64,000 nt of DNA, taken from the NCBI GenBank assembly GCA_032158295.1, contig CM063260.1, positions 1,374,001-1,438,000 of the forward strand, given 5' to 3'. How positions within the stretch are numbered: position 1 is the stretch's first letter; each line of letters opens with the position of its first letter. The notes under the pieces are model-generated. The model was not told the origin of the DNA, ran no database searches, and was given only the letters and a program-made list of their open reading frames with translations. Made by a program: the position numbers and the translations under genes. This document shows, piece by piece, positions 1,606-60,975 of this stretch. The stretch comes from Pycnopodia helianthoides. Lineage: Eukaryota > Echinodermata > Asteroidea > Forcipulatida > Asteriidae.

Positions 1606-4600
1606 CATAGCAAGCACCCTTGTTTGCAGGTTTCCTCAGGCTTGCGAGCTACAGTGATTAAGCTCACTTTTGAGGCATCCTTGGTTTCATTACCAAAAAA
1701 TACAAATAGCGGAACATTTCGCTTGACAATTTTTTGCTAAGCAAGACTAAGCAGGATACCCAGCCACAGATTGTGTGTGTGACGTGGTATTTTGGCTGGT
1801 AACCTCATACTGTTAAGCAAAATTATTTTGTGCTTAGCTACGTTTTAAGCAGCTCTATCAAATTGGGTCATGGGCTTAAAATAAAACGTCTGCTCAGAAC
1901 AACAAGGTTTTTAGTGCAGTTAGTGCGGCTCAATATTGATCAAGAGTTGTCTCCAAAGTAATTGTTTGCCAAAAAGAAAATATCAAATTTATAAGCATTT
2001 TTCACTCAACGCCCTTCTTTTTATTATGCAAATAATAAAATGGAAACTAATGACCTTATAGCACTGAGCCGTCAAAATTGACCTTTGACAAAAAGCATTT
2101 GACATTTTGATATTTGCATAAAAGTCATTATGTAAATTAGCCCCCAAAACATGTAAATCCTCAAGATTCAACGAGTATAATTAAGTATTAACAAATAACT
2201 TTGGATTTCTGTGAGAATTGTTCCACTTCCTCTCAAATTGCCTTGTCTTGTTCAATTATTTTAAGTTTTATTTTATTAAGGCATAGTATACACTTTTATC
2301 ATGATAAATTGAAATATGAGTAGTAAACACGGTCAATTATTCCATGAGTACAGTTTTCTTTTCCTTTGTACATTTTGTTTATATTTACTAATTCGGTTCT
2401 TTTGAAATAGATATCACTTATTATTATTATGAATTGATAAATTTAAATGGGATGTAATTGGTGTAGGATATTCCATGTGATTGTCAATCATTGCTAAATG
2501 ATCATGAATAAAGTCACCTGTCAAAACTGAAACAGTTTTTTTTTGTCAGAATATAATATGATTTTTCTTTAAATTTGTTTTATTGTATGAAGGGTTTTAA
2601 AGCAAGTTGTGTTTTTGCATAGAAAAGAAACATACAGACTCATAGTTCAACCAGAAGAAATCAGAGTTATGTTTATTTTGAGGCTAAATTCTAAAGAATT
2701 TTTCTTTCAAACTAATTTAGTTTCAGCAAAGAGCAAAGAATTTTCAGACAGAAACTTTCCTTTTAGGGAGTATACCGGTATTATTGCATCCACCATAACA
2801 CTTGTTTTATTTCATTTTATTTATTTGTTTATTTTAATCTTATTATTGCATAATTATTTGGGGGGGTGGGGGTGGCTTTGAACTTGTTTGTTCTTTTTTT
2901 ATATAAAGATTCAATGTCTTCTCCCTGTTGTTGTGATCGTATGTAATCACCCTAAGATGATCTCACGAAGGAAAGGGGGGTGTCGACCTGTCCCTCAATG
3001 CTGTCAACTCAATAAAATAAATACATTTTGTTGAAAAATCTTTGTTTCTGTTATTTTAATGATGTAATTTTGTTATTTTTCCTTTATTTTATAAATACCA
3101 TCCAACATAACTCCCCTTATAATTTATATAACACCCTTGCCCGGCTCTCCCCGCCCTTAATTCCCTTCTAATTCTATTGTTCTAAGTGGACGATCCCTTG
3201 TTTTTGGTTTGTTTGTTTTGCATCGTCAGAGGGCGCTTCGAAGGCGGGAACCATAATTTTGCAATTTTGTTTAAAAGTTTGAATGTTGCGCAATATTTCG
3301 GGGGAATAAAACAGGATAATGCCCAGCAACCGTCAAACAAATGGAGCACCACAACACAAGGTAGGATAAATATCTCTTTTGTTATTTCGTAAGTGGTACC
3401 GAAGAATGTCTGCTCGGCCCAATTGTTTATAAATATCGGTGACAATTAACACAGACTGCCCAGTTGTCTTCGGCAATTCGCGAAGATGTGGTTGTATTTT
3501 CACTACTGTTTCACGTCGAGCTGTCATCGGCTGCAAGTCTTGCTCCCTACCCCGAACATTATTTTCACCACACCTCATAGCATAAGGGAACCAGTCTATT
3601 GTCAAAATGAGCGGATTGCCACGTTGTTTTGTTAAAATATACAGACAATTAAGCTGCTTTTAAAGAATGTAAACAAAATGAAGAATCAAAGCTGGTGGGC
3701 TACTCAATAAGGTCCTAGGGGAGAAGCGTATTGGGGACAGACAGGAGAAGAATTTAAGCATTTCTGGCCGTTTGTACCGTTGCCAAAATGTATTGGAACC
3801 TACCACCCTAGAACTGTTCATGTGGCCCGGGCCCGGACGGCTGAGGACGGGTCGTCCGCCTCGTCCCTCCATGCTCGTACTCGTCATGCTCGTAGTATTA
3901 AATAAACGTCTAGTGTCTCTTCTGGTGTGTTTTCAGCTGATTTCCATTCCACGTAAAGTTAGGATATAGCTCGCAACAAGTGGTTTTAACCATGGAGAAT
4001 AAACTAGACTGAGTCAAAACATGGGGTTCAAAAATGTGACTAGTGACAGTGTAATAAGAGTGTAGTCTCGCTGAGATGTTCTCAGTGGATGAAATGATTA
4101 GAACATTCTAGTGGGGATTGCATGTTACATTGTATGAATTCATTGTGTTTCATGCTAATTAATTATGCAGCTAGCCAATAGCACCTGGTCAAATATTCTG
4201 TGCGCCGAATTCTTTTGGGGAAAACGCATACGATAGTTATTGCATAGTCTTATTGTCGGCATGTTTCTGTTGGAAATGTGACATCCCCCCAAAATCGACC
4301 TCCTTTTTGGTTGTCTTGTAGAGTTGTATATTTATAAACAAGTCTCATCACCTTTTGTTGGCGCTGGTTTTGTTGTCATACCTCCGCTTGTAACAATTTG
4401 TGGAATGTTGATATCTCTTGAGGAATGTGCCGAAATTAAAAACAACATGTCGCCTAACTTAGTGGTAGTGGATTTCAACAAGGTTGGTTATGTACAGGGC
4501 CACAAACGCTGAGCCAAACAAAATTATGCTTAGGAAAACCATAAACTGTGTGTGTGGTTGTGATCCCGTTGAAACCGAGGACTTTAACAAAAGGGATCCG

Positions 4601-12806: not shown

Positions 12807-13175
12807 TTAAAGGCAGTGGACAACTATTGGTAATTACTCAAAATAGCATAAAACCTTACTTAGGTAACGAGTAATGGGGAGAAGATTGACAGTATAAAAC
12901 ATTCTGAGAAACGGCTCCCTCTGAAGTGACATAGTTTTCGAGAAAGAAGTAATTTTCCACGAATTTGATTTCGAGACCTCAGAATTAGATTTTGAGGTCT
13001 CGAAATCAACCATCTGAAAGCACACAACTTCGTGTGACAAGGGTGTTTTTTCTTTCATAACTATCTCGCAACTTCGACGACCAATTGAGCTCAAGTTTTT
13101 ACAGGTTTGTTATTTTATCCACATAAGTGAGAAGACTGGTCTTGACAATTACCAATAGTGTCCAGTGTCTTTAAA
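12807..13175 (-). repeat. TTAA-flanked MITE, copy 2
   Basis: Starts TTAAAGGCAGTGGACA at 12807 and ends CCAGTGTCTTTAA near 13174, so both ends carry TTAA and inverted termini. In reverse orientation it is close to the copy at 46074-46458. The centre holds an inverted pair (GATTTCGAGACCTCA and TGAGGTCTCGAAATC) that forms a hairpin. There is no coding capacity beyond an 86-codon chance frame. Confidence 0.85.
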
Positions 13176-20095: not shown

Positions 20096-20355
20096 TGTAA
20101 AGCACTGTATATACTCGGTACTTTCCCAAGTCCTGTAAAAAAATATCCACAGGCATTTTACTCGGATGGGATTCCAACCCACTACCTTTGTCATTCTAGA
20201 GCAGATGTCTTTCAACTAGACCACCGAGATCGCCCGGTTAGTAAGACATCTGCTCTAGAATGGCAAAGGTTGTGGGTTGAAATCCCACCCGAGTAACATA
20301 CCTGTGGATTTTTTTCACAGGACTCGGGAAAGTAATAAGTATAAAGTGCTTTACA
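20096..20355. repeat. Head-to-head pair of tRNA-like SINE copies
   Basis: A 260-bp inverted repeat: TGTAAAGCAC at 20096 is mirrored by GTGCTTTACA ending at 20355, and the arms match over about 120 bp. Each arm, read outward from the centre, holds a tRNA-like block: GGTGGTCTAGTTG in the left arm (A-box-like), CATCTGCTCTAGAATG in both, then GTGGGTTGnAATCCCA (degenerate B box) and a tail GCCTGTGGAT or ACCTGTGGAT with a T run. It is best read as two SINEs in inverted orientation; a foldback element captured from a tRNA-SINE is the alternative. Confidence 0.7.
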
Positions 20356-21536: not shown

Positions 21537-21641
21537 TGCCGAAACCCGGGACAATTCAGAACTCATGTAAGTTCTCCGGGGATTCGAACCAGGGACCTTT
21601 AGATCTTCAGTCTAACGCTCTCCCAACTGAGCTATTTCGGC
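21537..21641 (-). tRNA. tRNA-Phe-GAA: tRNA-Phe(GAA), T-arm insertion, array A gene 6
   Basis: Last gene of array A in the direction of transcription. The acceptor halves GCCGAAA and TTTCGGC pair perfectly, the anticodon loop reads CTGAAGA, and A73 is encoded. The body follows eukaryotic cytosolic tRNA-Phe, including A-box-like TAGCTCAGTTGG and B box GGTTCGAATCC. A 32-nt insertion lies between A58 and the T-stem 3' strand. Its hairpin is AGAACT, loop TACATG, AGTTCT, a one-base loop variant. A T4 terminator occurs on the minus strand (21527-21530). Confidence 0.8.
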
Positions 21642-21716
21642 ACATAATAATGCATGAATAACTAAAGACTTGTATATTGAAATTTTGCAGAAAATATCTC
21701 AATTTCAAAAAGTGTC

Positions 21717-21821
21717 TGCCGAAACCCGGGACAATTCAGAACTCATGCAAGTTCTCCGGGGATTCGAACCAGGGACCTTTAGATCTTCAGTCTAACGCTC
21801 TCCCAACTGAGCTATTTCGGC
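21717..21821 (-). tRNA. tRNA-Phe-GAA: tRNA-Phe(GAA), T-arm insertion, array A gene 5
   Basis: Consensus sequence throughout, insertion loop TGCATG. A T5 terminator on the minus strand (21707-21711) lies 6-10 nt past the end. The leader carries CAATATTTATC about 20 nt upstream of G1, the AT box seen ahead of most array members. Confidence 0.82.
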
Positions 21822-21896
21822 AGATGATAAATTGATAAATATTGCAGTTTTTCTTGTATATTTCACATGAAATACTTCAATTAAGCAAAAATTGTC

Positions 21897-22001
21897 TGCC
21901 GAAACCCGGGACAATTCAGAACTCATGCAAGTTCTCCAGGGATTCGAACCAGGGACCTTTAGATCTTCAGTCTAACGCTCTCCCAACTGAGCTATTTCGG
22001 C
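21897..22001 (-). tRNA. tRNA-Phe-GAA: tRNA-Phe(GAA), T-arm insertion, array A gene 4
   Basis: The body is consensus. In the insertion the CCCGG block is CCTGG, so its possible pairing with the distal CCGGG now uses a G-U wobble; the AGAACT and AGTTCT stem is intact. T5 terminator at 21887-21891 on the minus strand. Confidence 0.8.
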
Positions 22002-22085
22002 AGATGATAAATTTGATAAATATTGCAGTTTTTCTTGTATATTTCACATGAAATACTTCAATTAATGTTGTCTGCAAAAATTGTC

Positions 22086-22190
22086 TGCCGAAACCCGGGA
22101 CAATTCAGAACTCATGCAAGTTCTCCAGGGATTCGGACCAGGGACCTTTAGATCTTCAGTCTAACGCTCTCCCAACTGAGCTATTTCGGC
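22086..22190 (-). tRNA. tRNA-Phe-GAA: tRNA-Phe(GAA), T-arm insertion, array A gene 3
   Basis: Differs from the consensus in the B box (GGTCCGAATCC, T to C at T55) and shares the CCTGG change of its neighbour at 21897. Loss of the normally invariant T55 would weaken both TFIIIC binding and the T loop, so this copy may be impaired. T5 terminator at 22076-22080 on the minus strand. The spacer downstream is about 9 nt longer than usual. Confidence 0.72.
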
Positions 22191-22265
22191 AGATGATAAA
22201 TTTGATAAATATTGCAGTTTTTCTTGTATATTTCACAATGAACACTCCAATAGGCAAAAATTGTG

Positions 22266-22369
22266 TGCCGAAACCCGGGACAATTCGGAACTCATGCAAG
22301 TTCTCCGGGATTCGAACCAGGGACCTTTAGATCTTCAGTCTAACGCTCTCCCAACTGAGCTATTTCGGC
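22266..22369 (-). tRNA. tRNA-Phe-GAA: tRNA-Phe(GAA), T-arm insertion, array A gene 2
   Basis: 104 nt: one base of the C run after the T loop is missing, and the outer pair of the insertion hairpin is broken (AGAACT against AGTTCC). This is the only copy with a stem change. The 3' flank starts CACA rather than GACA. T5 terminator at 22256-22260 on the minus strand. Confidence 0.75.
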
Positions 22370-22614
22370 AGATACATTTGCTTCGTCTTAAATAGCTGAT
22401 TCGATAAATTGGTAATAAATCTTATTTAATCTTGTTATTGTAAGGAGGACACTACTGATAGCAATTTGTAAACACAAAATTGTGTTAATCTGCGGTAAAT
22501 AAAAAGTTATTTGTTAAAGAAATTAAAACAAACAATATTAAACAAGGTGAGGCTATTATGTTTAAAAGAGCAAATAATAACCTACAATAAAAAATAAATG
22601 TTGAAAAGAACATT
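22370..22614 (-). other. Long spacer of array A
   Basis: 245 bp of AT-rich sequence between genes 1 and 2 of array A. Read on the minus strand it aligns with the 251-bp spacer at 56641-56891 (AACATTTATTTTT, TTTTAAACA, TTTTAATTTCTT, GCAGATnAACACA blocks in order). No gene is within it. Confidence 0.75.
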
Positions 22615-22719
22615 TGCCGAAACCCGGGACAATTCAGAACTCATGCGAGTTCTCCGGGGTATCGAACCAGGGACCTTTAGATCTTCAGTCTAACGCTCTC
22701 CCAACTGAGCTATTTCGGC
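22615..22719 (-). tRNA. tRNA-Phe-GAA: tRNA-Phe(GAA), T-arm insertion, array A gene 1
   Basis: First gene of array A. The T loop and B box read GGTTCGATACC instead of GGTTCGAATCC, and the insertion loop is CGCATG with an intact AGAACT and AGTTCT stem. A T4 run on the minus strand (22604-22607) follows the 3' end. The leader differs from other members and lacks the AATATTTA box. Confidence 0.75.
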
Positions 22720-26916: not shown

Positions 26917-27021
26917 GCCGAAATAGCTCAGTTGGGAGAGCGTTAGACTGAAGATCTAAAGGTCCCTGGTTCGAATCCCCGGAGAACTTGTTTGAGTTCT
27001 GAATTGTCCCGGGTTTCGGCA
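26917..27021 (+). tRNA. tRNA-Phe-GAA: tRNA-Phe(GAA), T-arm insertion, single gene
   Basis: The body is consensus with perfect acceptor pairing. The insertion hairpin keeps AGAACT and AGTTCT but its loop is TGTTTG, two changes from the usual TGCATG. A T5 run follows at 27030-27034. The leader is unlike those of the arrays (CAATAAAC only 8-15 nt upstream), so it may be expressed differently. About 88 bp downstream an array-type spacer leads into a truncated second unit. Confidence 0.8.
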
Positions 27022-27108
27022 AAATGTTCTTTTTAGTCACTTTTTGCTCAGTTTGAATATTTCATGTGAAATATTCAACAACTGCAATATTTATCAAAAA
27101 TAGCATCT

Positions 27109-27116
27109 GCCGAAAT
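27109..27116 (+). pseudogene. Truncated start of a second tRNA-Phe unit
   Basis: After an array-like spacer (GCAATATTTATC, then GCATCT) the sequence GCCGAAAT begins a further tRNA-Phe and breaks off after eight bases. It shows that the solitary gene at 26917 was once part of a longer tandem array. Confidence 0.65.
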
Positions 27117-27120
27117 TTAG

Positions 27121-46073: not shown

Positions 46074-46458
46074 TTAAAGACACTGGACACTTGGTAATTG
46101 TCAAAGACCAGTCTTCTCACTTGGTGTATCTCAACATATGGATAAAATAACAAACCTGTAAAAACTTGAGCTCAATTGGTCGTCGAAGTTGCGAGATAAC
46201 TGTGAAAGAAAAAACACCCTTGTCACACGAAGTTGTGTGCTTTCAGATGGTTGATTTCGAGACCTCAAATTCTAATTCTGAGGTCTCGAAATCAAATTCG
46301 TGGAAAATTACTTCTTTCTCGAAAACTATGTCACTTCAGAGGGAGCCGTTTCTCACAATGTTTTATACTGTCAACCTCTCCCCATTACTCGTTACCAAGT
46401 AAGGTTCTATGCTAATAATTATTTTTAGTGATTACCAATAGTGTCCACTGCCTTTAAA
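46074..46458 (+). repeat. TTAA-flanked MITE, copy 4 (best preserved)
   Basis: Starts TTAAAGACACTGGACACT at 46074 and ends AGTGTCCACTGCCTTTAA near 46457, giving inverted ends inside TTAA. The centre has GATTTCGAGACCTCA facing TGAGGTCTCGAAATC. The interior aligns with 12807-13175 reversed almost throughout. It serves as the reference copy of the family in this window. Confidence 0.88.
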
Positions 46459-48007: not shown

Positions 48008-48505
48008 ATCTGCAACGTGTCATAAAACCAGCTTGTCCCCGCAAGTCTATTGTCTTAGCGTTCTAAGGTATCAGTTGTAAGGCTCCATGCCCCAACTGTC
48101 CCTCGTGGTACCTCCGAAATTCCACTTTTGTAACCATATCTTGTCTTGCTCTGGGACAAGTTTTCCCCCTCAAAAACAATCGGTTTTATATATATATATA
48201 TAGCCAGTCAGGGGCGTTCAGACTTCAGTTGACAGGGGCTGATGGGCCGGTCTGTTTGCCCTTGGCTATAGCTGTGTGTCTTGGTGGTGTTTTTAATTGT
48301 CTTTACACTGGATGTCGAAGCAATTACGTGTGTAAATGTCTGTGCGATGTGTAGCCCGCTCTCTTCAAGTGTTCGCTCTTGTAGTCGAATTGAAACTTGG
48401 GACAAAATCATATGTAGTTGTCACTAGTTTCAATTGATTATAGTGAATTACAATCTATAACTATCAAGAGAGTACTCTGTACATGCATGGAGCATGGAGG
48501 GAGCA
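48008..48505. other. Non-coding stretch, nothing recognised
   Basis: A (TA)n run occurs at about 48188-48201. No gene was recognised. Confidence 0.55.
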
Positions 48506-48506
48506 C

Positions 48507-48599
48507 TTATGGCAAGCCATATGCCCAATAATTCGATAAACACTGTTTATCGCCGATAAACAGTATTTATCGAATTATTGGACATATGGCTTGCCATAA
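48507..48599. mobile_element. 93-bp near-perfect palindrome with GCAC duplication
   Basis: TTATGGCAAGCCATATG at the left is matched inverted at the right (CATATGGCTTGCCATAA); the arms continue through AATAATTCGATAAA to a short centre near 48553. GCAC flanks both sides (48503-48506 and 48600-48603). It is small, complete and non-coding, consistent with a minimal foldback MITE. Confidence 0.85.
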
Positions 48600-48603
48600 G
48601 CAC

Positions 48604-50333
48604 TCGAGTTGTGGCTTTGCAAAACACGCAAAATTGTGTTGGGTGTGTCATGGCGATATACCTGTCTGCGTGTCTTTTGATAATATGTTTGGACCCAATG
48701 CTTTTTTATTTAATTCATGTAAATTGTGAAATTGAGCAGTTTAAACGCCACAATTTTTTACTTTGTAGCTAATTTTGAACTCAGTTTTCAAACGTAAGTG
48801 TTGAGAGACCATCTTTAGAAGGATCGGTGTAAAGTTCGTTCTTGAGTGTGGAGGGGATGTCTTGTTTAAAATGTGCTGCTCGTATCTTTGACGTTTTTCG
48901 AGTTCTTACCATATTAGTGTCCCTCGATAGAAGTAACAGTAATTGACAGATCACAACAAAATAATAGTTCTTGGAAGTGCAATGAACGTAAATATACACA
49001 TGTTACGGGAATGTCACCAGCACGTACGCATCGCAGCTCGTCTAGGCGCCCAGGTGGTCTGAACGAAGTTAGTCCTCGGAAACAGGGGGGGGGGGGGGCG
49101 TGACGCCACACCGTTGATGATCATGCTATTGTGGGTGTTCCAGGTATACAGGCTAGCCCCTATTCAAGATTATCTCGCCTCCGGCCGTTCCCAGAAAAAC
49201 AAAATATATAGATATCCTTGGCTGGCTCTGGACTTCCACTCACTCTTCAAAAAGATTACTGGATTATGCTTATTTTATAGTTAATACGTGGGTGGGGGTT
49301 ATTACGGGGAAAGTTACAGGCCACCGGTGGTACTCCCTCATGTCTTGTGTACCATTCACGGCCCCGATCAAAATATTAAGGGGTGGGAATGGTCGTCAAT
49401 CCATGATCCAACCGACTTGCCCGAAACAGAATCGTGCCTTTGTCCGGATCTTCGGGGCAAGGTGGGCTGAGCATCGTGGTTTTTTTTTTATTCGGGGTGG
49501 CATGCGCGGGACAGAAAATGATTTCCACTGCTTTGTTATGTTGACATGAGGCTTTTGGGGTAATATTTACAGAGATTGGACCCGAATGTAGAAGGCTGAC
49601 AATTTGGTCGATTGTGAGAAGCCGGACTGAAAGAGTGGGATTATGGCTTGATGGATGCGAGCAAGTTGTACGGAACTTGGGTGTTGAGACCCGTGTACAG
49701 GGGCGGATCCAGAATTTTTCATGAAAGGGGGAAGGCAAACTTTGAAAGTGCTCACTTCCAAGTTGAACATGTTTTAAGATAAGTTCATTACCGGCGTGAC
49801 GTCCGGGCCAAGTTATAGGGCCCGGGAAATTTTAAAAACAAGAATGCTCTCTGATGGGGTGCAACTGTGTGGGTAGTATAGAAGCATTTTACATGTTACT
49901 TTTAACCCGTTTTAATATTTGGAATTTGTTTATTTGCCGCTCAATAAGAAGGTGGCGGAAAAAAGGGTAGAAAATACACCAACAAAATGAATATTATAGC
50001 CCGCCTTACGCAGTGTATGGAACTAGTTCGTCTTACATTAGTGGTGTGCAGACAATTTTAGTGTAATGAAGAGTGTAGACAGTTAGTTTGAATTTGGTTC
50101 ATTATGTGTACCAATTAAGATAGCCATCTATTTTTGGTGTAAATATGACGTCACCGTAATCAAAATGTAATGATTGTTTAATGGCTTTGCTCCTTGTCCC
50201 AATGAGCAAATACTGTATACTTGTCATTATCCATCGATCGTTCCTCTTTGAAATGAGATTTTGAAACCCCGTCTGAATTGCCTGCAGCAAAATCCAGAAA
50301 CATTGTCACAAAAAGGCCCATCAAAATTGTCAG
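48604..50333. other. Non-coding stretch, nothing recognised
   Basis: A G run (about 49086-49099) and overlapping frames of up to 120 codons (49376-49738, minus) without recognisable domains. Confidence 0.5.
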
Positions 50334-56178: not shown

Positions 56179-56283
56179 GCCGAAATAGCTCAGTTGGGAG
56201 AGCGTTAGACTGAAGATCTAAAGGTCCCTGGTTCGAATCCCCGGAGAACTTGCATGAGTTCTGAATTGTCCCGGGTTTCGGCA
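56179..56283 (+). tRNA. tRNA-Phe-GAA: tRNA-Phe(GAA), T-arm insertion, array B gene 1 (reference)
   Basis: Acceptor 56179-56185 with 56276-56282, A73 at 56283. D loop AGTTGGGA has G18, G19 and G20. Anticodon loop CTGAAGA has GAA at 34-36. T stem CCTGG at 56227-56231, loop start TTCGA at 56232-56236. The insertion is 56237-56268 (32 nt); T59 and CCGGG resume at 56269-56275. Without it the gene is 73 nt and the T stem pairs CCTGG with CCGGG. Insert hairpin: AGAACT (56245-56250), TGCATG, AGTTCT (56257-56262). CCCGG (56240-56244) could compete for the CCGGG strand. T6 terminator at 56288-56293. The leader has CAATTTATC about 20 nt upstream. Confidence 0.83.
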
Positions 56284-56357
56284 GACATTTTTTGCCTATT
56301 GGAGTGTTCATGTGAAATATACAACAAACACTCAAATATTTACCTTATTTAATATGT

Positions 56358-56462
56358 GCCGAAATAGCTCAGTTGGGAGAGCGTTAGACTGAAGATCTAA
56401 AGGTCCCTGGTTCGAATCCCCGGAGAACTTGCATGAGTTCTGAATTGTCCCGGGTTTCGGCA
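56358..56462 (+). tRNA. tRNA-Phe-GAA: tRNA-Phe(GAA), T-arm insertion, array B gene 2
   Basis: Identical to the reference gene over its length. AATATTTA lies at -23 to -16 (56335-56342). T6 terminator at 56467-56472. The downstream spacer is the same type as that of gene 1. Confidence 0.83.
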
Positions 56463-56536
56463 GACATTTTTTGCCTATTGGAGTGTTCATGTGAAATATA
56501 CAACAAACACTCAAATATTTACCTTATTTAATATGT

Positions 56537-56640
56537 GCCGAAATAGCTCAGTTGGGAGAGCGTTAGACTGAAGATCTAAAGGTCCCTGGTTCGAATCCCC
56601 GAGAACTTGCATTAGTTCTGAATTGTCCCGGGTTTCGGCA
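56537..56640 (+). tRNA. tRNA-Phe-GAA: tRNA-Phe(GAA), T-arm insertion, array B gene 3
   Basis: 104 nt: one G is missing at the start of the insert hairpin (CCCCGAGAAC), and the loop is TGCATT. The stem is intact. It is followed by a T4 terminator (56649-56652) and the long spacer. The one-base loss lies inside the removable segment, so the 73-nt core is unaffected. Confidence 0.78.
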
Positions 56641-56891
56641 AACATTTCTTTTAAACATTTATTTTTATTGCAGGTTGTGCTGTTGTTATTTTAAACACAA
56701 CAGCCGCAACCAGTTCAATATGGTTCGTTTTAATTTCTTAAAAATAGCTTTTATTACAAATTGCAGATCAACACAGTTTTATTTATTACTATCTGATTAG
56801 TTATAGGTTGGCATTTAAAAAGTGCTGACAGTCCTCCCCCCGATCGTTACTAGAAATTTTAGCAATGTATCAAATCCTAACAAATGTATCT
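56641..56891 (+). other. Long spacer of array B
   Basis: 251 bp, homologous to 22370-22614 reversed. It ends with a leader unlike other members (CAATGTATC, then AATGTATCT). Confidence 0.75.
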
Positions 56892-56996
56892 GCCGAAATA
56901 GCTCAGTTGGGAGAGCGTTAGACTGAAGATCTAAAGGTCCCTGGTTCGAATCCCCGGAGAACTTGCATGAGTTCTGAATTGTCCCGGGTTTCGGCA
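56892..56996 (+). tRNA. tRNA-Phe-GAA: tRNA-Phe(GAA), T-arm insertion, array B gene 4
   Basis: Identical to the reference. T5 terminator at 57002-57006. The first gene after the long spacer, lacking the AATATTTA box; its downstream spacer is of the second type (GTCACTTTTTGCTTAATTG). Confidence 0.82.
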
Positions 56997-57070
56997 GTCA
57001 CTTTTTGCTTAATTGAAGTTTTCTGTGAAATTTACACCCAAAACTGCAATATTTATCAGAAGTAACATCT

Positions 57071-57175
57071 GCCGAAATAGCTCAGTTGGGAGAGCGTTAG
57101 ACTGAAGATCTAAAGGTCCCTGGTTCGAATCCCCGGAGAACTTGCATGAGTTCTGAATTGTCCCGGGTTTCGGCA
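57071..57175 (+). tRNA. tRNA-Phe-GAA: tRNA-Phe(GAA), T-arm insertion, array B gene 5
   Basis: Identical to the reference. AATATTTAT at -23 to -15 (57048-57056). T5 terminator at 57181-57185. Gene plus spacer is an almost exact copy of the preceding unit. Confidence 0.83.
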
Positions 57176-57249
57176 GTCACTTTTTGCTTAATTGAAGTTT
57201 TCTGTGAAATTTACACCCAAAACTGCAATATTTATCAGAAGTAACATCT

Positions 57250-57354
57250 GCCGAAATAGCTCAGTTGGGAGAGCGTTAGACTGAAGATCTAAAGGTCACT
57301 GGTTCGAATCCCCGGAGAACTTGCATTAGTTCTAAATTGTCCCGGGTTTCGGCA
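57250..57354 (+). tRNA. tRNA-Phe-GAA: tRNA-Phe(GAA), T-arm insertion, array B gene 6 (variant)
   Basis: C49 is A (GGTCACTGG), breaking the outermost T-stem pair with G65. The insert loop is TGCATT and the post-hairpin segment is AAATTGT rather than GAATTGT. T6 terminator at 57360-57365. The downstream spacer is a mosaic: its start resembles the second type and its end (TACCTAATTTAATATGT) the first. This may be a weakened copy. Confidence 0.72.
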
Positions 57355-57429
57355 GACACTTTTTTGCTTAATTGAAGTCTAATGTGAAATTTACAACAAA
57401 AACTGCAATATTTACCTAATTTAATATGT

Positions 57430-57534
57430 GCCGAAATAGCTCAGTTGGGAGAGCGTTAGACTGAAGATCTAAAGGTCCCTGGTTCGAATCCCCGGAGAAC
57501 TTGCATGAGTTCTGAATTGTCCCGGGTTTCGGCA
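57430..57534 (+). tRNA. tRNA-Phe-GAA: tRNA-Phe(GAA), T-arm insertion, array B gene 7
   Basis: Identical to the reference. T5 terminator at 57540-57544, spacer of the second type. Confidence 0.83.
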
Positions 57535-57608
57535 GTCACTTTTTGCTTAATTGAAGTTTTCTGTGAAATTTACACCCAAAACTGCAATATTTATCAGAAG
57601 TAACATCT

Positions 57609-57713
57609 GCCGAAATAGCTCAGTTGGGAGAGCGTTAGACTGAAGATCTAAAGGTCCCTGGTTCGAATCCCCGGAGAACTTGCATGAGTTCTGAATTGTC
57701 CCGGGTTTCGGCA
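57609..57713 (+). tRNA. tRNA-Phe-GAA: tRNA-Phe(GAA), T-arm insertion, array B gene 8
   Basis: Identical to the reference. T6 terminator at 57718-57723, spacer of the first type, as after genes 1 and 2. Confidence 0.83.
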
Positions 57714-57787
57714 GACATTTTTTGCCTATTGGAGTGTTCATGTGAAATATACAACAAACACTCAAATATTTACCTTATTTAATATGT

Positions 57788-57892
57788 GCCGAAATAGCTC
57801 AGTTGGGAGAGCGTTAGACTGAAGATCTAAAGGTCCCTGGTTCGAATCCCCGGAGAACTTGCATTAGTTCTGAATTGTCCCGGGTTTCGGCA
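57788..57892 (+). tRNA. tRNA-Phe-GAA: tRNA-Phe(GAA), T-arm insertion, array B gene 9
   Basis: Last intact gene. Insert loop TGCATT, stem intact. T5 terminator at 57897-57901. Only about 48 bp separate it from a MITE at 57941. Confidence 0.82.
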
Positions 57893-58341: not shown

Positions 58342-58425
58342 GCCTAAAAATTGCTTAGATCGGAGATCTAAATCAAAGGTCCCTGGAGGACTATCGTAAG
58401 TTCTCAGTTGTCCCGGGTTTCGTCA
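58342..58425 (+). pseudogene. Decayed tRNA-Phe copy retaining the insertion
   Basis: GCCTAAAAATTGCTTAGA, AGATCTAAATCAAAGGTCCCTGG and GTCCCGGGTTTCGTCA align with the tRNA-Phe body. The anticodon region is scrambled and the TTCGAATC loop is lost. The insert segment persists as GAGGACTATCGTAAGTTCT then CAGTTGT. So the insertion predates the decay of this copy. Confidence 0.75.
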
Positions 58426-60409
58426 TTTTACCTTCATGTAATTTCCACAATTTCTTTTATTCATTGATATTTCGTTTTACGCTCAACTATTCATGGTATA
58501 TGCAGACACCTGATTATTGTATGGAGGCAGAAACGCTTCCATGGTAATTACGTAACACTGTGATAATACCCAGTACGAAAGGTATGTGCGTCGTCGACTC
58601 GTGGTCTGTGACCTGAGGGGTGGGTCTGTGACCTGAGGGGGGTGCACCGCCGAGTCGTCCAGCTTGCTGTTAGCTGTTTTGTAAAATAACGTTCCTTCTG
58701 CAAATACGAAAAATACCCTAGGTTGTCGAAGGAAAAGTAGACCAAAGTGATCAGTTTGTGGTGTTTGCTGAGCTCGACGATCCCTTGGGTGGGGCCAAAC
58801 CCTAGAATAGCTCAGCTCCCCGTTGCTTTAAGTTCAACCGTGGAGGCCAGCTTCAACGGTAAGTGAACTTGTCAACGTCTGGGAAGCGTATGCAATAATC
58901 CCGGGTGCCCCCATTTTGAAATCTGGACTTTTGAGATTAAAAATGTCCAAAGTAAAATGTACCATTTTACAAGCTTTAGTGTGATAATGTTTGTGTTTTA
59001 AAAACTCGTTTTGCCTTTACACCAGGCCTGATTTACACGCAGATCATGTATTTGTTTTTACACTCACTTCAGATTATCTTAGCCTATAACAAGAGCGCTG
59101 AAATGGGGGTAGAATTGTATATCCAATTGATTTTACCATAGAGAGATTTGACAGAAGAAGAAATCTCTTCAATAATTTCTTCGAGAGAAGATGTGGAAAC
59201 CAAGTTTAGAAAATCTCTCGGCAGGGGCTGATGACCGCCAAAACTAGGGTATTTTTTGTTGGGGGGGGGGGCACATGGGGTGCACCAGTCAATTAGCTGG
59301 CCCTCACCTCGGTTAGTGGAATTGGGGTGTAGATTGCAGTGTATAATTTATTTGCCGGTTTTCCCACGGTGGCACAAACCACTGAGATGTAAATCCGGCT
59401 TCAAATCTTCGCCACCTTCAATTAGCACATTATAAGCTGATTATGCTATGGTGGCTCAAAGGGAACATAACAAGCCGCGGCTTTTTTTATTTATCGCGCA
59501 TTATTGCAGGTTCAACCCACATACGTCAATAAATAGTATACAAAACAGACTCGCCTTATAATGTGTAGGCATTGTGGTTTTAAATTAAATTTAGTATTGT
59601 GTTGGTTTACTTTTGAAATTGAAAGCGGCAAGGACACATTTGGTAGTAAACCAGTACATAACGCATCGTGATTCCAAACGCTAACCGAACCTGACGACAG
59701 TGCTTTCGCCCGAGTGGGGTATGACGTGTCGCACAATCGAAGCATTATCGTTTGCTCTGAATAGTGTTCATCGCTGTCGAGTACCGAGATACCATAAAAC
59801 CGTGCCACGGTTTGTGCCGTCACCAAACTCTGTGACCCCACAACTCATCACACGGCAAAACAATTGAGAACACTCCCAAAAATCTACAGAAATCCAAGCC
59901 CTACTACCCAACCCCTTCAATCCCACCTGCAAAAGCCACCCCAGAATTTGGCAAAATTCTCAACAGATCTGTGGTGCTATGGCCCTTCCACCCATGCACC
60001 CATTTATCCGAAAAATAAGTGATAATTTACTGAAACACCTGCAGAATAGTACCCTGTAAATAACCATCTACTTCAACCCCACCCCAGCCACACACCTTCA
60101 GAAATCCAGGGTGCAAGTTTGTACCGTCACGGAGGTCCATGAAGGTACGCTCAAAAAAGTACCCAATGGTTCCCCTAGCCACCACCACCACTTAATTGAA
60201 TCGACAGGCGCTAAGAGCCCCCTTCTATGAACAATAATTTTTTTATTTTTATCACGACACTGTTCAGGAGATCGAGGGATCAAGACTTGATAAACTATTC
60301 ATTTGTACATTTTCCCACGGTCGTCAGTATCCAGAGCTTGGAGGTAGAAACCAAGTAACTGTCATTATACAGTATGAACAGTTTATTCGAAGTCGTCATC
60401 GCATTGATG
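58426..60409. other. Non-coding stretch, minor repeats
   Basis: ATGGAGGCAGAAACGCTTCCAT (58520-58541) is a diverged member of the GGAGGTAGAAA palindrome family. GGTCTGTGACCTGAGGGG is repeated twice at about 58600-58640. A G run lies at about 59262-59271. A 109-codon minus frame (59512-59841) has no recognised domain. Confidence 0.5.
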
Positions 60410-60975
60410 TTGGTTGGTGTCATTTTGGAGAGTCAATTTCCAGTTTTGTACAAGGCATCCCCCAGCCTTCAAGCTTTGGTTGGTGTGATTTTGGAGAGTC
60501 AATTTCCAGTTTTGTACAAGCATCCCAGCTCAAGTGCAAGCTTTGGATGTGATTTTGGAGAGTCAATTTCCAGTTTTGTACAAAGCATCCCCAGCCTGCA
60601 AGTGCAAGCTTTGGATGTTGATTTTGGAGAGTCAATTTCCAGTTTTGTACAAGGCATCCCCCAGCCTGCAAGCTTTGGTTGTTGTGATTTTGGAGAGTCA
60701 ATCCATTTTAAAGCATCCAGCCTATTAAGCTTTGTTTTGATTTGGAGAGTCAATTCCAGTTGTACAAACACCCAGCCTGCAAGTGCAAGCTTTGGTTGTT
60801 GTGATTTTGGAGAGTCAATTTCCAGTTTTGTACAAGCATCCCACTGCAAGCAAACTTGGTGTGTGATTTGGAGAGTCATTCAGTTGTAAGCATCCCTGCC
60901 TCAAGCTTTGGTTGTTGTGATTTTGGAGAGTCAATTTCCAGTTTTGTACAAGACATCCCAGCCTACAAGCTTTTG
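60410..60975 (+). repeat. Nine-unit minisatellite, 52-73 bp period
   Basis: GGAGAGTCA recurs about nine times (near 60427, 60493, 60557, 60626, 60692, 60744, 60809, 60870 and 60925), within units TTTTGGAGAGTCAATTTCC, AGTTTTGTACAAGGCATCCC and CAGCCTGCAAGCTTTGG. Several units have internal deletions. The open frames (171 codons plus, 126 minus) shift phase between units, so they are not evidence of a protein. Confidence 0.93.

Follow-up and report, generated by a model that had tools for sequence, protein, structure and literature searches.

A window of 64,000 nucleotides (nt) from the sea star Pycnopodia helianthoides (contig CM063260.1, positions 1,374,001 to 1,438,000), which is the whole stretch of DNA analysed here, contains 16 full copies of a gene for phenylalanine transfer RNA, tRNA-Phe(GAA), ten on the plus strand and six on the minus strand, and in every one of them the T loop is interrupted between positions 58 and 59 by an insert, 32 nt long in 14 copies and 31 nt long in two. 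These tRNA-Phe genes with their T-arm insert are a real and unusual gene family. They are probably functional cytosolic tRNA-Phe(GAA) genes carrying a 31-32 nt non-canonical intron in the T loop, either at 58/59 or displaced from it by at most about 4 nt. That the whole cytosolic supply of tRNA-Phe comes from such genes, making all protein synthesis dependent on an excision outside the anticodon loop by a relaxed splicing endonuclease or another enzyme, is a tentative extension that falls just short of an even balance.

The copies, named below by their first coordinate, are 105 nt long in 14 cases and 104 nt long in two, and share a common layout in which 58 nt of a eukaryotic tRNA-Phe through A58 are followed by the insert and then by the final 15 nt, TCCCGGGTTTCGGCA, which are the same in 16/16; the letters before the insert are TTCGA, except for TCCGA in copy 22086. 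Removal of the insert at 58/59 yields a 73-mer whose T stem is paired throughout, including one U-G pair, in 15/16 copies, the exception being 57250 with C49 changed to A, and in 14/16 the product is one identical 73-mer, which we take to be equal to the human tRNA-Phe sequence. The property expected of a non-canonical eukaryotic tRNA intron, namely that taking an insert out of the T or D arm gives the tRNA back, is seen in these 15 paired T stems. A previous sequence-only reading had described a 31-32 nt segment between A58 and T59 in all 16 full copies, and the same coordinates were recovered here, while its statement that deletion leaves a 73-nt tRNA-Phe with a perfect T stem holds for 15 copies and fails for 57250. 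The sequence does not determine exactly where the cuts would fall, since the T stem is still paired in 15/16 when the same length is taken out 1 to 4 nt farther along; offset 0 gives the most uniform product (14/16 identical as compared to 13/16), and with offsets 2-4 the commonest product has a TTCGAAT loop (13/16 identical). The anticodon loop CTGAAGA is intact and uninterrupted in 16/16 copies, with no intron at the canonical position 37/38. As expected from an interruption near the 3' end, the Rfam tRNA model aligns only over its positions 8-63 of 71 in each of the 16 copies, and ARAGORN run on the window called no tRNA and hence none of the 16. A gapped tRNA-Phe pattern matches 14/16 window copies, missing the two with body changes, and finds no match in 100 shuffles.

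Among the 16 window copies the tRNA body contrasts with the insert. Variable columns amount to 2/73 in the body and 12/32 in the insert (Fisher p = 7e-6), and to 0/15 in the 3' body as compared to the insert (p = 0.005), these column-based p values being indicative only, since columns and copies share ancestry; counted as changed cells, the figures are 2/1168 for the body and 15/512 for the insert. The sole two body changes are C49A in copy 57250 and T54C in copy 22086, and the 15 nt 3' of the insert are invariant in 16/16. All 16 pairs of the acceptor, D and anticodon stems are invariant wherever both letters are present in an alignment of 12 rows, in which one copy from beyond the window (L031) lacks a D-stem base and another, on contig C13, was left out. 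The 16 window copies thus have the intact stems and the signature of purifying selection on the body that are expected of a functional eukaryotic tRNA gene. Eleven aligned spacers, judged by eye, are more variable still than the inserts. Since array conversion would even out body and insert alike, the contrast argues that the mature tRNA is under selection both 5' and 3' of the insert, and in these sequences it points to selection on the 73-nt tRNA lacking the insert. Promoter function alone would not preserve the 3' acceptor strand. The alternative T strand CCCCGG, which lies within the insert, has changes in 4/16 copies (21897, 22086, 22266 and 56537), as compared to 0/16 for the distal CCCGGG, which identifies the far strand as the constrained one; a local T arm within the insert, pairing CCTGG with CCCCGG, was rejected as the functional strand, being mismatched and altered in these four copies.

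Expression signals are likewise present in these genes. An A box is present in 16/16 copies and the B box GGTTCGAATC in 14/16, the exceptions being 22086 due to T54C and 22615 with GGTTCGATAC. The opening letters of the insert complete the B box. In 16/16 copies four or more consecutive T residues follow, starting no more than 9 nt from the 3' end, so that this family has the combination of A and B boxes with a nearby T-run terminator that is typical of a functional eukaryotic tRNA gene.

The genome sequence searched for further copies comprises 479,350,823 bases in 742 contigs, with the window on contig C18, and is masked at the forward-strand window copies (10/10) and not at the reverse-strand ones (0/6). 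An uninterrupted tRNA-Phe 3' half, allowing up to 3 mismatches, was found nowhere on either strand, with the limit that forward-strand genes could be hidden by the masking; as the masking touches forward-strand copies, this zero counts as good evidence where the reverse strand and diverged genes are concerned. Using an anticodon-arm pattern with up to 2 mismatches, seven visible sites were obtained, corresponding to the six minus-strand window copies and L031:7336-7439, all of them insert-bearing, and a looser tRNA-Phe pattern gave six visible sites, all within these seven and all insert-bearing. A pattern made of the 3' part of the insert and the 3' body is matched at 12 visible sites, of which 11 lie on C18 and one on C13. 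Three insert-bearing copies lie beyond the window, two of them about 100 kb away and one on C13. The copy at L031:7336-7439 has lost one D-stem base, is not listed at the Rfam cut-off and, judged by its sequence, may be dead, and a second, partly visible insert-bearing copy lies near it. The C13 copy is visible only in part, its 5' body being masked; the visible portion of its insert departs from the common form at three sites, whereas its 3' body shows no difference and leads into a T run. The 3' body is unchanged in all three further visible 3' ends, though the inserts differ. The total is 19 insert-bearing copies plus one decayed copy, with no visible uninterrupted one. Spacer pattern matches occur on C18 only (three visible).

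A multiplied and perhaps transcribed family that does not serve translation, with ordinary uninterrupted tRNA-Phe genes located in masked forward-strand stretches or assembly gaps, is the alternative that survives best, and it is unlikely. Forward-strand masking in the searched genome could conceal normal genes, decay of copies is seen at 58380 and at L031, and T-arm insertions in eukaryotic tRNA genes are described as mostly affecting a single gene among many synonymous ones and as being deemed pseudogenes (PMC4090602). The acceptor and distal T strands past the insert are nevertheless invariant in the 16/16 window copies and in the three further 3' ends despite differing inserts, an invariance that promoter function does not require. 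In addition, at the search stringency applied, no contig has a visible uninterrupted gene on its reverse strand, and it is unlikely that several independent loci of random orientation would all be hidden; with many such loci some should be visible, and one or two could stay hidden. As for the traits of a pseudogene or short interspersed nuclear element (SINE) family, the body is intact in the window, one D-stem deletion occurs in the L031 copy, and no normal copy is visible under forward-strand masking. The sequence-only reading had left three options, namely a non-canonical intron, an enlarged T arm or a family no longer making tRNA, and had proposed that abundant uninterrupted genes elsewhere, together with no transcripts from these copies, would speak for the last. 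No uninterrupted gene is visible, which, with the forward strand partly masked, answers this check only in part. The body/insert contrast, the unchanged 3' body elsewhere and the lack of a visible uninterrupted gene together speak for a functional tRNA over a dead family.

The next alternative concerns the structure of the T arm. With the cloverleaf imposed, the canonical T stem CCUGG/CCGGG forms in 14/16 copies. Beyond it the arm continues through a 2x2 loop to a 3-bp CGA/UUG helix, both junctions being the two 3' ends of this helix, and then through a large one-sided loop to an inner hairpin, which in the reference copy at 56179 reads AGAACUU-GCAU-GAGUUCU. In the 12 aligned rows, three hairpin pairs have one-sided changes that preserve pairing and two pairs have broken cells. 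Retention of the insert in a mature tRNA-Phe of about 105 nt with an enlarged T arm, working so or doing another job, would agree with such a canonical T stem with an extended arm and with the largely preserved inner hairpin, and is quite unlikely. The 7-nt T loop docks on the D loop in established tRNA structure, and pairing of C56-G57-A58 inside the arm should spoil this loop. Moreover, the insert drifts and the body does not, with one-base deletions in the insert in 2/16 copies.

The least favoured possibility, and a very improbable one, is that the insert is what remains of a mobile element or of slippage with a single origin, spread by array conversion so that its universality reflects history and not function: TCCCCGG and TCCCGGG flank a palindromic core like an imperfect target duplication and tRNA genes are targets of Dada transposons, which generate duplications of 6-7 bp (PMC3706591, PMC8869645), but this accounts for the origin and not for the frozen body around the insert, and is compatible with functional genes bearing a T-loop intron. 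Insertion of Dada or another transposon was itself rejected, with flanks that are not identical and a core of about 24 nt, and is kept solely as a possible origin; published Dada tRNA targets in fish are described as mainly the anticodon region and the A box (PMC8869645).

For functional genes with a T-loop intron, we infer the following course of transcription and excision, including the enzymes and the exact junctions. RNA polymerase III would transcribe the genes from the A box and from a B box whose last bases come from the start of the insert, and the ends would be trimmed by RNase P and tRNase Z. The insert would then be cut from the extended T arm, most likely by the TSEN endonuclease at a relaxed site resembling a bulge-helix-bulge (BHB), a nuclease other than TSEN being possible, and the halves would be ligated by an RtcB-type ligase to give an ordinary 73-nt tRNA. 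Exons of tRNA_int_endo, the TSEN catalytic-domain family, are found in the genome at two places on C13 (three matches). Animal tRNA splicing is taken to operate at 37/38, with TSEN reading the mature tRNA body, and T-arm introns are not known from the tRNA genes of animals. Human TSEN is reported to recognise the mature tRNA body including the elbow formed by the D loop and T loop (PMC10539383), and eukaryal endonucleases, unlike the archaeal enzyme of the same study, are described as leaving a minimal BHB uncut at 30 C (PMC8707768). Due to this body and elbow recognition and the lack of minimal-BHB cleavage, action of TSEN on a T-arm substrate would be a departure.

Several observations weigh against such an intron. 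An insert in the T arm would disturb the elbow read by human TSEN (PMC10539383), uninterrupted forward-strand tRNA-Phe genes could be hidden by masking, and the D-stem base loss at L031 means that not every copy is intact. The strict BHB, with two 3-nt bulges and a 4-bp helix at the junctions, is absent, the arm having a 3-bp helix, a 2x2 loop and a large one-sided loop instead; the modelled T-arm fold resembles a BHB in its two-fold look, yet is not one by the strict rule. Even with the cloverleaf imposed, copies 22615 and 57250 (2/16) still favour another T-arm pairing, and without constraint the reference copy has its energy minimum in a fold other than the cloverleaf (-32.5 as compared to -31.1 kcal/mol). 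Stability of the arm is unremarkable, as 282/2000 shuffled inserts are equally or more stable, and in 459/2000 shuffled inserts, too, the final base of the insert pairs into the T loop. When three whole copies and one insert were folded, they were just 1.1-1.5 standard deviations below shuffles. Covariation in the arm is nil, with no pair changed on both sides among 12 distinct rows. Taken by itself, the predicted structure gives neither support for nor exclusion of splicing.

If the favoured interpretation as functional genes with a T-loop intron is true, an obligatory intron of this kind would represent animal splicing in which the T loop and its contact with the D loop are interrupted, and the real requirements of TSEN would become testable in a common marine animal. 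A standard tRNA finder may then overlook an essential gene family in such genomes, as illustrated by ARAGORN calling 0/16 copies.

The genes are placed in two arrays and one solitary position, with a repeat period of array units that is mostly 179-189 nt, and each of them has an Rfam tRNA match. Six minus-strand genes at 21537-22719 comprise 21537..21641 (insert 21552-21583, 32 nt; Rfam tRNA 8-63), 21717..21821 (insert 21732-21763, 32 nt), 21897..22001 (insert 21912-21943, 32 nt, a CCCTGG variant), 22086..22190 (insert 22101-22132; T54C), the 104-nt gene 22266..22369 (insert 22281-22311, 31 nt; 42.4 bits in Rfam) and 22615..22719 (insert 22630-22661, beginning with TACCCC). The solitary gene at 26917..27021 (plus strand, insert 26975-27006) is followed on its 3' side at 27022-27120 (plus strand) by a spacer-like stretch and then by the truncated start of another gene (CATCTGCCGAAAT...), an arrangement that looks like the outcome of a deletion of an adjacent unit. 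Nine plus-strand genes at 56179-57892 begin with the reference copy 56179..56283, one of seven identical copies, whose insert at 56237..56268 (plus strand) contains the hairpin AGAACTT-GCAT-GAGTTCT, and continue with 56358..56462 (insert 56416-56447), the 104-nt gene 56537..56640 (insert 56595-56625, 31 nt), 56892..56996 (insert 56950-56981), 57071..57175 (insert 57129-57160), 57250..57354 (insert 57308-57339; C49A), 57430..57534 (insert 57488-57519), 57609..57713 (insert 57667-57698) and 57788..57892 (insert 57846-57877). The decayed 3' part of a copy at 58380..58425 (plus strand, 80% identity over 46 nt) retains the insert hairpin in diverged form together with most of its 3' body, with TTCGAATCCCCGG missing between CCCTGG and the hairpin. 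Single folds of spacers, for example 56284-56357 and 56997-57070, contain stems pairing TTGGAGTGTT with AACACTCAA and TTGAAGTTTT with AAAACTGCAA; a conserved RNA hairpin in the spacers was rejected, as a consensus RNA fold of 11 spacers retains almost nothing of them.

As regards other tRNAs, the family search of the genome is not a census (63 of 81270 first-look candidates were scored). Among the tRNA matches listed, 57/58 run over the whole model, and eight fetched genomic matches are uninterrupted tRNAs by ARAGORN (six Asn, one Ile and one Asp), from which it follows that tRNAs of this genome do not generally carry the insert. The tRNA-Phe pattern has no match in the genome_contigs and viral_contigs collections, as expected of non-animal collections. 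Two tRNA-like heads, at L011:936-993 and L013:757-813, resemble each other in their flanks and tails and probably belong to a SINE, by which tRNA counts in this genome would be inflated. Two divergently oriented tRNA matches with about 70 nt between them lie at L022:4264-4331 (minus) and 4401-4468 (plus). A weak full-length tRNA match within the window at 20158-20230 (minus strand, 24.8 bits) is below the cut-off and is perhaps a tRNA-derived repeat.

The remainder of the window and its vicinity can be described briefly. An exon of a HES-1-like factor (L010) lies 3-4 kb past the window end, with 87% identity to an Asterias rubens protein and 67% identity to Patiria miniata and Acanthaster planci proteins, which marks the genome as that of a sea star related to Asterias and probably a forcipulatid. 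Ten long open reading frames of the window gave no Pfam match over the cut-off, and one window frame had no match in a protein collection. A 176-amino-acid open frame at 60359-60886 (plus strand, both strands being open) has apparent repeats of a unit containing FGESISSFVQ. A near-perfect palindrome of about 105 nt at 48501-48605, with microRNA-model matches below cut-offs, is probably a small inverted-repeat element, and a 242-nt inverted pair at 12883-13124 and 46136-46377, 97% complementary and 33 kb apart, is probably a repeat element.

Introns in the T arm are known from archaea, the red alga Cyanidioschyzon merolae and nucleomorphs (PMC4090602, PMC9602550), and a search of the open-access literature for a nuclear T-arm tRNA intron in an animal found none, which is weak evidence. 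C. merolae comes closest as a nuclear eukaryotic tRNA gene with a T-arm intron, its tRNA-Ile(UAU) having introns at 12/13, 37/38 and 53/54; its introns are described as having BHB motifs and RT-PCR (reverse transcription polymerase chain reaction)-supported processing (PMC9602550), whereas the sea star case concerns an animal and site 58/59, lacks the strict motif and is predicted from gene sequences. Nucleomorphs of Guillardia theta and others have non-canonical inserts of 3-24 nt, including in the D and T arms, and excision of some was confirmed by RT-PCR with an unclear splice signal; these are reduced algal nuclei in which the named T-arm introns are 3 nt long, as compared to 31-32 nt with a hairpin in the sea star (PMC4090602). 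Archaeal non-canonical introns at 53/54, 56/57, 59/60 and other sites similarly occupy the T arm of tRNA genes (PMC4090602), but follow the BHB motif, whose strict form is absent in the sea star. Eukaryotic tRNA pseudogenes with an insert in the T arm of a nuclear gene share the location, and other eukaryotic genes with an insertion in the D or T arm are mostly one among many normal synonymous copies and are regarded as pseudogenes (PMC4090602), whereas in the sea star every visible copy carries the insert and the tRNA body is conserved.
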